Below, piece after piece: positions 2,071 through 37,159 of a DNA stretch of 44,160 nucleotides. The DNA comes from a bacterium (lineage in GTDB: Bacteria; Patescibacteriota; Minisyncoccia; Phycocordibacterales; Phycocordibacteraceae): assembly GCA_021789225.1 (NCBI GenBank), contig JAJYJQ010000004.1, forward strand, positions 1-44,160, read 5' to 3'. The notes under the pieces are model-generated. The model searched no databases, was not told where the DNA came from, and saw only the letters and a list, made by a program, of their open reading frames with translations. The first letter of the stretch is position 1. The number at the start of each line of letters is the position of its first letter. A program made the position numbers and the translations under genes.

Positions 2071-2238
2071 TTAGAGCCCGTTAAAAAACCCACCCTGCCT
2101 GCACCGCCGATTTTCGGGCTGCGGCGCACTCGTTTCGTCCTCTATGTGCCACAAGCACATATCGGACTCCAACTCGACGCCTCGCCTCGAAAATCGGCGG
2201 CTCGGCTGGGGTACCGCGGGTTGTTTAACGGGCTCTTA
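2071..2238. repeat. Intergenic palindromic element D (about 168 nt): outer arms TTAGAGCCCGTTAAAAAACCC / GGGTTGTTTAACGGGCTCTTA, inner arms CCGCCGATTTTCG / CGAAAATCGGCGG, apical hairpin TATGTGC/GCACATA
   Basis: Arms read directly; resembles elements at 18596-18698 and 27609-27707. Confidence 0.85.
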
Positions 2239-2248
2239 GATAGAGCCG

Positions 2249-18435: not shown

Positions 18436-18595
18436 TTATACACACCCGCAACATTGCATCCTTGTGCTGTTTATGTCATACTCACGATAACTCGCAGTGT
18501 CTCTTGAGCTTTGCGGCCCTCGTGCCCCAGAAGCGTTCGGTACCCGGCGAGGGTTATCAAGTTCACAGCCATTTTCAAGCAATGCTTTCACAATG

Positions 18596-18698
18596 GTGCG
18601 CTTCTGAATTTCGAGCGAGAAACGAGTCGGAACGCGAAGTGTATCCGAGATACATTGAGCGTGAGACGAGGTTTCGCAGCCGAAATTCAGAAGCGCAC
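18596..18698. repeat. Intergenic palindromic element E (103 nt) upstream of the RRM gene
   Basis: Perfect 18-bp arms GTGCGCTTCTGAATTTCG/CGAAATTCAGAAGCGCAC; apical GTATC/GATAC hairpin. Confidence 0.9.
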
Positions 18699-18736
18699 GT
18701 GGAATGATTGATTGAGAAGGGCGTTACTACGCATCC

Positions 18737-23127: not shown

Positions 23128-23212
23128 CGTCGCCGGCATGTCGAGAAAAAGTGAGTAAGACTCGGCCTAGCGGCCCGGAGCGCTCACTTTTTTCGACATG
23201 CCGGTGCGGCGA
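23128..23212 (+). repeat. Palindromic element C1 with A/T-flanked stem and 27-nt core TAAGACTCGGCCTAGCGGCCCGGAGCG
   Basis: GTCGCCGGCATGTCGAGAAAAAGTGAG / CTCACTTTTTTCGACATGCCGGTGCGGCGAC; same core found at 36986-37012 in reverse orientation. Confidence 0.9.
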
Positions 23213-25749: not shown

Positions 25750-28700
25750 CTATTGCTCCAGCAACGCGAGGAGGGCGTCGTAGGCAGAGGGGGCGCCGCG
25801 GCGCCAGGTGAGGGAGCGCAGCTCGCGGACGACCGTGTCTACATCGGCGAGCGCGGCCTCCTGCTCCGCCTCCCCCACCGGCACGAGCACTTGTTTTATA
25901 CCTGCATCCGAAATGCCCAGCAGCTCGGCACCGGCGACGGGCTCTTTGTTTGCCGCAAGCATCGCGGCGTAGAGCGCGAGCTGGCGTGCGTAGCCTTCGT
26001 TTTTTGCCGAGACGCTGCTGCCTGTTTTGAAATCTGCCACCACGAGCGCACCGCCGTTTTTAAACACCACGTCGATCTTGCCGCCAAACGTCACCGGCGC
26101 GCCCTCCACCACGCGCGTCAGCGAGAATGCTTTTTCAATGTGCTCAGGCGCGCCCAACGCTGAGAGCTCTGGCAGCGCTGCGGCAAACGCTGCGCGCGCA
26201 TCGCGCTTGAGTTTCTCGAAGGTCGCGTCGCGCGGGAGGAGTGAGCGGTCAAAGGAGCGCGCGAGCGTAGCGAGCGCGTCTTCTTCGCTTGCGCCCGAGA
26301 GCGCTGCGGCGAGTGCGGCGTGCAGCGCGTTGCCGTAGACCAAGGGCGCCGTGGGCGGCTCCTGGATCCTGAGCACGCGCCGCGCGAAAAATGTCGCTGG
26401 CGACTCCAAGTATTCGTTTACGGCCGAAGGCGAAAGCCCTTCCGTTTCGAGATAGCGCTCGATGAGCGCGCGAACTTTCTCCGGCGCGGAAACGGTCGTA
26501 TGCAAAAGCGGCAGCGCCTCGCTCTCGACCGGCGTTTCGGGCAAGCCAGCTGGCAGCAGGCTCGTCGGCAGCCGGTCGCGCCCCTCGGCGCTCGCGCGAG
26601 CATAGGAAAGATACGCATGATCCTTAGCACGCGTGAGCGCCACATAGAAAAGCCGGCGCGCATCATCAAGCGACTGTTTGTTTTCAAACGGCGAAGGCAG
26701 CAGCGCGGCGCGACCGCCCTTCTCCCACGCGTTTTCCGTGCAGTCAGGAATGAGCACGTACCGAAACTCCATGCCTTTGGCTTTGTGCGCCGTGATGACC
26801 GTCACAAACCCTTCCCGCTCTGTGACAGACACTTTCACCGGCGAGAGGCCGTGTTCACGCGCTCGCGAGAGCGCCGCAAACGCTTCGGCAAATGTCGCCC
26901 CCTCGGTGAGACGCGCCGCAGATTCCAAATGCTCCATGAGCTTGCGCACGAGTGCGATATCGTCCACGTGCTCGGCATGCGAGAGGAAGTAGTCGCGTGC
27001 GCCACTCTCGGCAAAGACATAGGAGAAAGTCGCGATGGGTGTTTCGCTACGCGCTTTCTGCACGCACGTCGTGATGACGCGCGCGGTCTCGGGGTATGCG
27101 CGTGCGAGTGCACTCGTGAGGTCGCGGTCGCTCGTGGTGCGCAAAAATACCAAGAGCTCCGCAATGTTGGACACCGGATGTCCAACATGCCACCAGGGGG
27201 CGAGGAGAGCTTCGCGGAGGCTGCCGAGCGCGGTCGGGTCAGCCACGTACTGCATGAGCGCCATAAGAGCACGCATGAGTGGCCGGCCTGTGAGCGAGAG
27301 GTCGCCCGCACGCAAGACAGGCAGACCGCGCGCAATGAGCACGTCGGCAAAAAGATCGGCTGTGTCGTTCGTGCGCGCGATGACCGCGATCTCGTGCGGC
27401 GCGGCACCCTCCGCGATGAGCTGCTCGATGAGCACCGCTGCTTTCGCGCGCTCGTCGAGCGGGTCGAGTGCCTCGATACGCGAGACTCGCTCGCGCACGC
27501 CGTCTTCCCCATTTCCGCGATGTGCCGCAAGCGGCGCGTGGTCGCCCGTCAAGGGGCCTCTCCCAAAAATAACCCCCAAATCGCCCTCACCCAAAGCGTG
27601 GCGGCTGCGAGGCGCTGTTTCCGGCTGCGAGTCCGAACGGCTCGCACTCGACGTATCTCGATACGCCTCATGCTGCGCCGCGGGCTCTCGCTCGGAAACA
27701 GCGCCTCTCGCTTCGCCATTATTTTTGGGAGAGACCCCCGCCACCACTTCATGTGCTGCGTCGAGAATGTGCTGGTACGAACGGAACGAGGACGTGAGTG
27801 CAATCACGGTCGCGCGCGGGAAAAGCTCCGTGAACGCTTTGAATGCCCCGAGGTCAGCGCCTTGGAAGCGGTAGATCGCCTGCTTTTCATCACCCACCAC
27901 AAAAAGATTCGGATGGTCGTCATATGCGAAAAGTTCAAGCAGACGGTGCTGGAGCGCGTTTGCGTCTTGATGCTCATCCGCGAGGATGTACTGATAGCGC
28001 TCCTGCAGGTCGCTCCTCAGCCCCTCATCCGCCGCGATGCGTGCGATAACACTCGCGAGCATGTCGGAAAAATCCGAGAGGTGGCGCTCATCTTTGAGTG
28101 CCTCGTAGCGCTCGAATACGCGCACTGCCTCCTCCACCTTATCGAAACGCGCGAGCTTCTCCTGCCCCGCTTTTGTGAGCTCGCCCGCGTGTTCGCCGCG
28201 CTTGTAGCGGAGTGATTCGTCAGCCCCGAGCGCTTCGGCGGCTTCTTTCCCCCACGCGCGATACGCATCTAGTGACATCGCCTCGCGTGTGAGCGTGTCG
28301 TACAGGGAGCGCAAGTCGCGCAGATAGGTGTAGGGTGCTTTGGCGGGTCGGAGCGTATCGAGCTCGGCAGTGTCTATTGCTTCGCGCAGGAGGAGCGTCT
28401 GCTCCACATCGCCCATGAGCCGCCGGTCGGCTTCAGCAGCAAACGCATCCGGATACTCCGCGCGCACGAGCTCTGCAAAGCCGTGAAAAGTGGTAATGGT
28501 CACCTTGCGCGCCGTCTCCTCGCCGATGAGCAGCGCAAGCCGCCGCCGCATCGTGCGCGCAGCCGAGTCGGTGAATGTGAGCGCGAGGACCGCGTCGGGC
28601 TTCGCCTGGGTAACGCGCAAGATGTTTGCGATGCGAAGCGTCAGGATGTGGGTCTTCCCCGTGCCCGGGCCCGCGAGCACCATCACCGGCCCCTCCACCG

Positions 28701-28758
28701 TATCCACCGCCTGCCGCTGCTCCTTCGTGAGCCGCGCGTATGCCGAATCAAAATCCAT
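25750..28758 (-). CDS. UvrD/PcrA-like superfamily 1 helicase with C-terminal RecB-like PD-(D/E)XK nuclease domain
   Basis: Walker A AGPGTGKT; DEHQDAN; GDEKQAIYRFQGA; TAHKAKGMEF; VALTRAKDHAYLSYA; C-terminal GGKIDVVFKNGGALVVADFKTG. Confidence 0.92.
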   Translation of the reverse strand: MDFDSAYARLTKEQRQAVDTVEGPVMVLAGPGTGKTHILTLRIANILRVTQAKPDAVLALTFTDSAARTMRRRLALLIGEETARKVTITTFHGFAELVRAEYPDAFAAEADRRLMGDVEQTLLLREAIDTAELDTLRPAKAPYTYLRDLRSLYDTLTREAMSLDAYRAWGKEAAEALGADESLRYKRGEHAGELTKAGQEKLARFDKVEEAVRVFERYEALKDERHLSDFSDMLASVIARIAADEGLRSDLQERYQYILADEHQDANALQHRLLELFAYDDHPNLFVVGDEKQAIYRFQGADLGAFKAFTELFPRATVIALTSSFRSYQHILDAAHEVVAGVSPKNNGEARGAVSEREPAAQHEAYRDTSSASRSDSQPETAPRSRHALGEGDLGVIFGRGPLTGDHAPLAAHRGNGEDGVRERVSRIEALDPLDERAKAAVLIEQLIAEGAAPHEIAVIARTNDTADLFADVLIARGLPVLRAGDLSLTGRPLMRALMALMQYVADPTALGSLREALLAPWWHVGHPVSNIAELLVFLRTTSDRDLTSALARAYPETARVITTCVQKARSETPIATFSYVFAESGARDYFLSHAEHVDDIALVRKLMEHLESAARLTEGATFAEAFAALSRAREHGLSPVKVSVTEREGFVTVITAHKAKGMEFRYVLIPDCTENAWEKGGRAALLPSPFENKQSLDDARRLFYVALTRAKDHAYLSYARASAEGRDRLPTSLLPAGLPETPVESEALPLLHTTVSAPEKVRALIERYLETEGLSPSAVNEYLESPATFFARRVLRIQEPPTAPLVYGNALHAALAAALSGASEEDALATLARSFDRSLLPRDATFEKLKRDARAAFAAALPELSALGAPEHIEKAFSLTRVVEGAPVTFGGKIDVVFKNGGALVVADFKTGSSVSAKNEGYARQLALYAAMLAANKEPVAGAELLGISDAGIKQVLVPVGEAEQEAALADVDTVVRELRSLTWRRGAPSAYDALLALLEQ
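27163..27189 (-). repeat. 27-nt mini-palindrome inside the helicase gene
   Basis: Minus strand CATGTTGGACATCCGGTGTCCAACATT; 10-bp perfect arms; aligned to the prmC copy. Confidence 0.85.
27553..27738. repeat. 186-nt palindromic element B inserted in frame in the helicase CDS
   Basis: Outer arms GGGGCCTCTCCCAAAAATAA / TTATTTTTGGGAGAGACCCC; inner arms GAGGCGCTGTTTCCG / CGGAAACAGCGCCTC; length is exactly 62 codons. Confidence 0.9.
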
Positions 28759-36861: not shown

Positions 36862-37159
36862 GGCAGCGGGAGGGCATGCTTAGCGAACCAGTTGCGCAGG
36901 CGTCCTTGCATGGTGGTTTGGCATTTCTGGGCTTGCGAGCCGAAGCACGCCGCGTCCGCTCCGCCGGCACATCGAAAAAAGTGACCGCTTCGGGCCGCTA
37001 GACCGAGTCTTAGTCACTTTTTATCGATGGTGCCGGCTCTGCGCCCGCTACGGTAGAGACACGATTGGGCTCGCGATGCCAAACCAAGGACGCTGAAGCA
37101 GAGGGAGCGAGCGGCTGGGCGAGCGAGCGCTGGTTCGCGAAGCATGCCCTCCCGCTGCC
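36862..37159 (-). repeat. Large palindromic element C2 (about 300 nt) with nested arms and the same core as C1
   Basis: Outer arms GGCAGCGGGAGGGCATGCTTAGCGAACCAG / CTGGTTCGCGAAGCATGCCCTCCCGCTGCC (29 of 30 paired), middle arms GCGTCCTTG..GGTTTGGCAT / ATGCCAAACCAAGGACGC, inner arms GCCGGCACATCGAAAAAAGTGAC / GTCACTTTTTATCGATGGTGCCGGC. Confidence 0.9.

Follow-up and report, generated by a model that had tools for sequence, protein, structure and literature searches.

A palindrome within a Patescibacteria helicase gene is one copy of a dispersed IS5-type MITE family with a conserved folded interior

How a long palindrome can lie within the coding sequence of a conserved helicase without closing the reading frame, and where such a palindrome comes from, are the questions raised by the stretch of DNA analysed here, a window of 44,160 nt. 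The host gene (25750-28758, minus strand) encodes a RecB/AddA-like UvrD-family helicase of 1002 aa with a C-terminal PDDEXK nuclease domain, as identified by Pfam matches (UvrD-helicase, 5.6e-57; UvrD_C, 2.2e-23; PDDEXK_1, 3.8e-24) and by orthologues free of the insert. The element interrupts this gene in frame at positions 27553-27738, and the strand of the conserved fold is the gene strand (minus). An earlier note on this DNA, made from the sequence alone, had placed the outer arms at 27553-27572 and 27719-27738 and the inner arms at 27609-27623 and 27693-27707; both pairs were found at these positions, the outer pair being complementary at 19 of 20 nucleotides. The 186 nt were also read as described there, as 62 stop-free codons of the gene strand (residues 341-402) with the same translation. 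The outer arms form a degenerate terminal inverted repeat with the shared inner part TTATTTTT/AAAAATAA. On the gene strand, the folding energy of the element was -114.5 kcal/mol, compared with -71.4 +/- 7.8 kcal/mol (minimum -86.6) for 123 other segments of 186 nt from the same gene.

An empty site was observed in related genes. All 13 aligned orthologues, which were 49-83% identical to the window protein, lacked the 62 codons at the same point. In the alignment of 14 proteins, exactly 62 columns remained unmatched relative to the closest orthologues and were filled by the window protein only, which is the clean gap of about 62 aa that the earlier note had proposed to look for. In sister genomes, the counterparts of query residues 340/341 directly adjoin that of residue 404, and at the DNA level the window reads GTGGCG, the 186 nt, TTG and ACG, against GTGGCG-GAG-ACG in a sister gene. 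The named relatives of the helicase belonged mostly to Kaiserbacteria and other Paceibacterota, which assigns the window to this lineage. In the AlphaFold2 model, most of the helicase and nuclease sequence was predicted with good confidence, while residues 342-421, located between a helicase helix and a strand, had pLDDT values of about 25-35; the prediction thus places the insert in the helicase as a disordered loop. Together with the empty site in sister genes, this bears out the earlier description of the element as an in-frame palindromic insertion tolerated by the protein.

An open reading frame throughout the insert could also be expected if the 62 residues were a lineage-specific helicase domain unrelated to mobile elements. 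This reading can be regarded as refuted, as an intergenic site elsewhere in this genome (contig C34) holds DNA 85% identical to the core of the element, and the fold occurs outside the helicase gene in dozens of genomes. In the C34 copy, AAAAATAA is kept and the outer part is different, yet still complementary.

Two further copies were located in the window, in agreement with the family relationship suggested earlier. The second copy (2071-2239, minus strand) is a full-length element of about 169 nt with inverted repeats TTAGAGCCCGTTAAA and a TTA duplication, which is TAA on the element strand; its core spans 2103-2201 (minus, R2 score 95.3 bits). The third copy (18568-18722, plus strand) retains its arms and a core at 18599-18695 (R2 score 90.0 bits), with the outer inverted repeats decayed. 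Both cores were matched with covariance-model E values of 1e-18 to 1e-19, although the model was built from these two copies as well, so that independent support comes from the copies found elsewhere. The first covariance model was based on four copies from the genome of origin, and a second model was then used for the wider survey. Searches of this genome and its sister genomes, of the kind proposed in the earlier note, returned more copies: seven were found in the genome of origin (E<=1e-4), and others were detected by the first model in four sister genomes, the match in one being weak. Of the 397 genomes of the order, 100 (in 48 of 179 genera) gave matches with the second model, at most ten in any one genome; in a phylum-wide sample, 22 of 380 genomes did so. 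Near-identical copies at different sites within single genomes (G394, G443, G140, G170 and G733) indicate recent mobility; several of them were at contig ends, as expected since repeats break assemblies. The 186-nt insert is therefore one copy of a dispersed, Patescibacteria-wide family of miniature inverted-repeat transposable elements (MITEs).

This structured family, with its strongly conserved fold, is apparently undescribed. In the open-licence literature no description of it was found, nor any paper joining "Patescibacteria" with "miniature inverted-repeat transposable". Against Rfam 15, the window had no match at the gathering score, and two copies searched at E<=1 had none either. The element was absent from phage and plasmid records searched by blastn, and two of its end patterns were absent from viral contigs.

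With respect to gene context, simple ORF calling placed 99 of the 106 copies between genes. The seven flagged copies comprised the helicase copy, loci L089 and L046, and four copies without a Pfam family match. L089 was rejected as an in-frame copy, the long ORF beginning upstream of the RecG start, and L046 was rejected as well, the element sitting between an HhH-GPD gene and an HAD gene. Likewise, L043 in the release factor 1 region of genome G005 proved to lie upstream of the true start. The helicase copy is consequently the only one of the 106 verified in frame inside a conserved protein. These counts decide how far the resemblance to Rickettsia palindromic elements, drawn in the earlier note, can be taken. 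For the helicase copy the resemblance holds, given its clean 62-codon insertion in a conserved gene and the predicted disordered loop. It does not extend to the family, which is largely intergenic and yielded no second true in-frame case, and a family specialised for carriage inside proteins is most improbable.

The orientation of the copies relative to their neighbours was also evaluated. Upstream genes were in the same orientation in 48 cases and in the opposite one in 47, and for downstream genes the values were 38 and 54; a cis-regulatory role was unsupported by these counts, and the random orientation disfavours a role for neighbouring genes. At L042, L046 and L049, the end of the element supplies an in-frame TAG stop to the upstream reading frame, and the element may insert at stop codons or trim genes.

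The ends of the elements disclosed their origin, which the earlier note had left unnamed. Full-length copies measured 167-187 nt, ran from TAGARC to its complement and contained no transposase gene. The end pattern TAGARCNNGTCTNAAAA occurred 37 times in 10 of 93 genomes of the genus, versus a single match for the reversed control pattern. Among 55 copies with readable ends, target duplications were recognised in 38 (21 TA, 9 TTA and 8 TAA), and copies with another end type, TACCATC, had TTA or TAA duplications in 10 of 15 cases. Such duplication lengths are in keeping with the IS5 family. An autonomous relative of 845 bp was found in a sister genome (G079:C39:1602-2446); it carries the inverted repeat TAGAACCAGTCTCAAAAATACCT and an IS5 transposase in two frames (DUF4096 and DDE_Tnp_1 / NF033580), and its inverted repeat of 22-23 bp matches element ends in genome G004. 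Genomes with an IS5 transposase carried the element more often than those without (17 of 32 versus 83 of 362, p = 5e-4, an optimistic value given that species are not independent). As a point against this link, two transposases in genome G037, which contains several copies, have different ends. A derivation of the outer arms from the target was considered and dropped, as fresh copies carry identical ends. The element is thus a MITE of the IS5 type, and its folded interior is conserved.

In the genome of origin, no IS5 transposase (DUF4096 / NF033580) was found by search, and the element is for this reason probably immobile there now. A DUF4096 match was obtained in only 3 of 92 genomes of the genus, so the helper transposase would seem, from these searches, to be absent today from most carriers. 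At 27553/27738, where the ends have decayed, the helicase copy no longer displays a clean TAGARC end or a readable TA duplication, and the mechanics of its insertion were accordingly deduced from relatives.

A strand-specific imperfect hairpin might alternatively be a palindrome of the REP type that a Y1 (IS200/RAYT) transposase mobilises in single-stranded form. Y1_Tnp was indeed more frequent among carriers (32 of 40) than among non-carriers (22 of 40; p = 0.03), and two copies were situated less than 1 kb from a Y1 gene (G000:C28 and G271:C116), although about one such close pair is expected by chance according to a rough estimate. The association was not consistent, the copy-rich genomes G443 and G170 being devoid of a Y1 gene, and the copies possess two terminal inverted repeats and TA/TNA duplications, features that REPs lack. 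Mobilisation by Y1 is therefore very unlikely, and IS5-type ends remain the preferred explanation of how the element moved.

The conserved folded core comprises 99 nt (27609-27707, minus strand) and scored 100.4 and 95.8 bits with covariance models R1 and R2, respectively. Across 106 copies with 99 distinct sequences, all 35 pairs were compensated, and the covariation score was 0.837, compared with 0.226 after shuffling and no more than 0.164 when the partner was shifted, in an alignment that was made with the structure model and leans towards the structure. In a structure-free alignment of four sequences, 22 of 38 pairs were compensated, the structure having been drawn by hand from the same four. 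Three internal loops were nearly fixed (5'GA/5'GCA, 5'GGA/5'GA and 5'GA/5'GA), with bases kept in about 60-69 of the 71 non-redundant copies. All three were mapped on the minus strand. The first consists of GA at 27688-27689 on the 5' side, where both bases are kept in 69 of 71 copies, and GCA at 27626-27628 on the 3' side. In the second, the 5' side (27674-27676) is mostly GGA, and GCA here, and the 3' side is GA at 27642-27643. The third has GA at 27668-27669 (5' side, kept in 66-67 of 71) and GA at 27648-27649 (3' side). Judged by their composition, the three loops probably form tandem G-A pairs of the sheared type, the first and the second loop each having a single bulge.

G-U pairs outnumbered A-C pairs by 103 to 42 on the strand of the fold; 41 of the 71 non-redundant copies leaned towards G-U and 7 towards A-C. 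The p-value is optimistic owing to kinship among copies, and G-U is mildly preferred by the covariance model. A G-U pair on one strand corresponds to A-C on the other, and the constraint on the fold therefore appears to act on one strand, as it would for RNA or for single-stranded DNA. A folded single DNA strand could produce the G-U excess as an alternative to RNA.

The co-changes in the arms might also have arisen without selection on the fold, if the interior were kept as a double-stranded DNA palindrome (cruciform) and mismatches were corrected during replication with the hairpin as template. The outer arms do co-change even where they are transposon ends, and in a second palindrome family of the window (family C, 36862-37159) the outer arms of 30 nt are widely divergent between copies and still complementary. 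Such correction, however, would erase mismatched loops, in conflict with the retention of the tandem G-A loops, and a process at the level of the duplex predicts equal numbers of G-U and A-C pairs, unlike the ratio recorded. This explanation is hence considered unlikely. Selection on one strand is the preferred, if less certain, account of the interior fold, most simply through a transcribed RNA hairpin that would aid the persistence of the element. As a first guess, the core would act as an RNA favouring the element; as a second, the hairpin would have a role in transposition.

Other palindromes were recorded nearby and in relatives. In family C, an inner palindrome of roughly 130 nt is present near the apex at 36862-37159 and in the copy on contig C5. 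It is missing from three other copies in the genome (C13, C3 and C14), which makes these the natural empty sites of a nested insertion. A third family, with the conserved apex CGCTCCGGGCCGCTAGGCCGAGTCTTA, was found at 23133-23204 and 36957-37027; its stems co-change (e.g., GTGAGC / CTCAC and GTGTAC / TACAC), and further copies were present on contigs C33, C28, C22 and C51 of G000 and in sister genomes. Three loci of G015 (L057, L074 and L080) bear short palindromes, about 65-95 bp long, that share the TAGAGC...GTCTCAAAA ends, and a further palindrome seems to be inserted in the loop of L080. More distant hairpins, resembling the family in their G-A loops and differing in their outer arms (e.g., TTAGGACTTACGC), were observed in other classes of the phylum at L292, L299, L290 and L293; the last two, from two genomes of a single genus, appear to occupy one and the same site.

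Taken as a whole, the insert is very probably a copy of a Patescibacteria-wide, non-autonomous, IS5-ended MITE family; it would have been mobilised in trans, landed in frame and undergone decay of its ends, and, less certainly, it would have retained its fold under selection. An IS5-family transposase acting in trans would have moved the element to a TA in the connector that follows the "SSFRSYQHILDAAHEVV" helix of the helicase. An element of 184 nt, the length of the C34 sister copy, plus a duplication of 2 nt would give 186 nt, a multiple of three with one frame open. Owing to this divisibility and to the open frame, the gene would have survived with a disordered loop of 62 residues. The ends would have decayed afterwards, with matching changes in both arms, and the interior hairpin would be transcribed, helping the element to persist rather than serving neighbouring genes. 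A more far-reaching proposal is that a functional RNA is transcribed from the folded interior, whose three tandem G-A motifs would probably be a protein-binding scaffold, and that changing IS5-type ends have carried this interior across Patescibacteria; on present sequence data this is tentative and rather doubtful.

Mobile elements of Patescibacteria are little described, and the family reported here is widespread, and a simple covariance model suffices to detect it. A deeply conserved fold is unexpected in MITEs, which are ordinarily deletion derivatives with a short lifetime, and this leads to a testable question: why does a transposon fragment keep an RNA-like structure for so long? The helicase copy offers a natural case in which to test how protein arises from a mobile hairpin. 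If the RNA reading were true, the family would represent a selfish or domesticated noncoding RNA with transposon ends as its vehicle, occasionally joining a host protein as in the helicase.

Among known systems, IS5-family MITEs share with the present elements a short length, the lack of a transposase, terminal inverted repeats in common with IS5, TA/TNA duplications and a mostly intergenic location. In contrast to them, the present interior is a covarying hairpin with fixed loops, conserved throughout the order and traceable across the phylum, and the inverted repeats vary by subfamily. Stable hairpin transcripts are expected of MITEs (reviewed in PMC10969869). Rickettsia palindromic elements comprise three families inserted in frame in many genes (PMC10969869); common to both groups are palindromes of about 150-190 nt and the occurrence, at least once, of an insertion in frame with a conserved protein, whereas the present family, set apart by the description of those elements, has a single verified in-frame case. 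With nearly all copies outside genes, no conserved encoded peptide is expected in it. REP/RAYT palindromes are likewise imperfect and have a strand-specific fold, but the present elements are much longer and carry terminal inverted repeats and target duplications. The bcr1 element of the Bacillus cereus group is a mobile repeat as well, about 150-170 bp long, whose stem-loop structure is conserved (PMC2267715); compared by description, it is limited to one species group, while the present family spans many genera of Patescibacteria. As a structured MITE, the family has its closest precedents in bcr1 (PMC2267715) and in hairpin-forming MITEs (PMC10969869). Distinct from Rickettsia palindromic elements by habit, from REP/RAYT palindromes and from the families in Rfam, the family is, by its tested features, a MITE family of the IS5 type.
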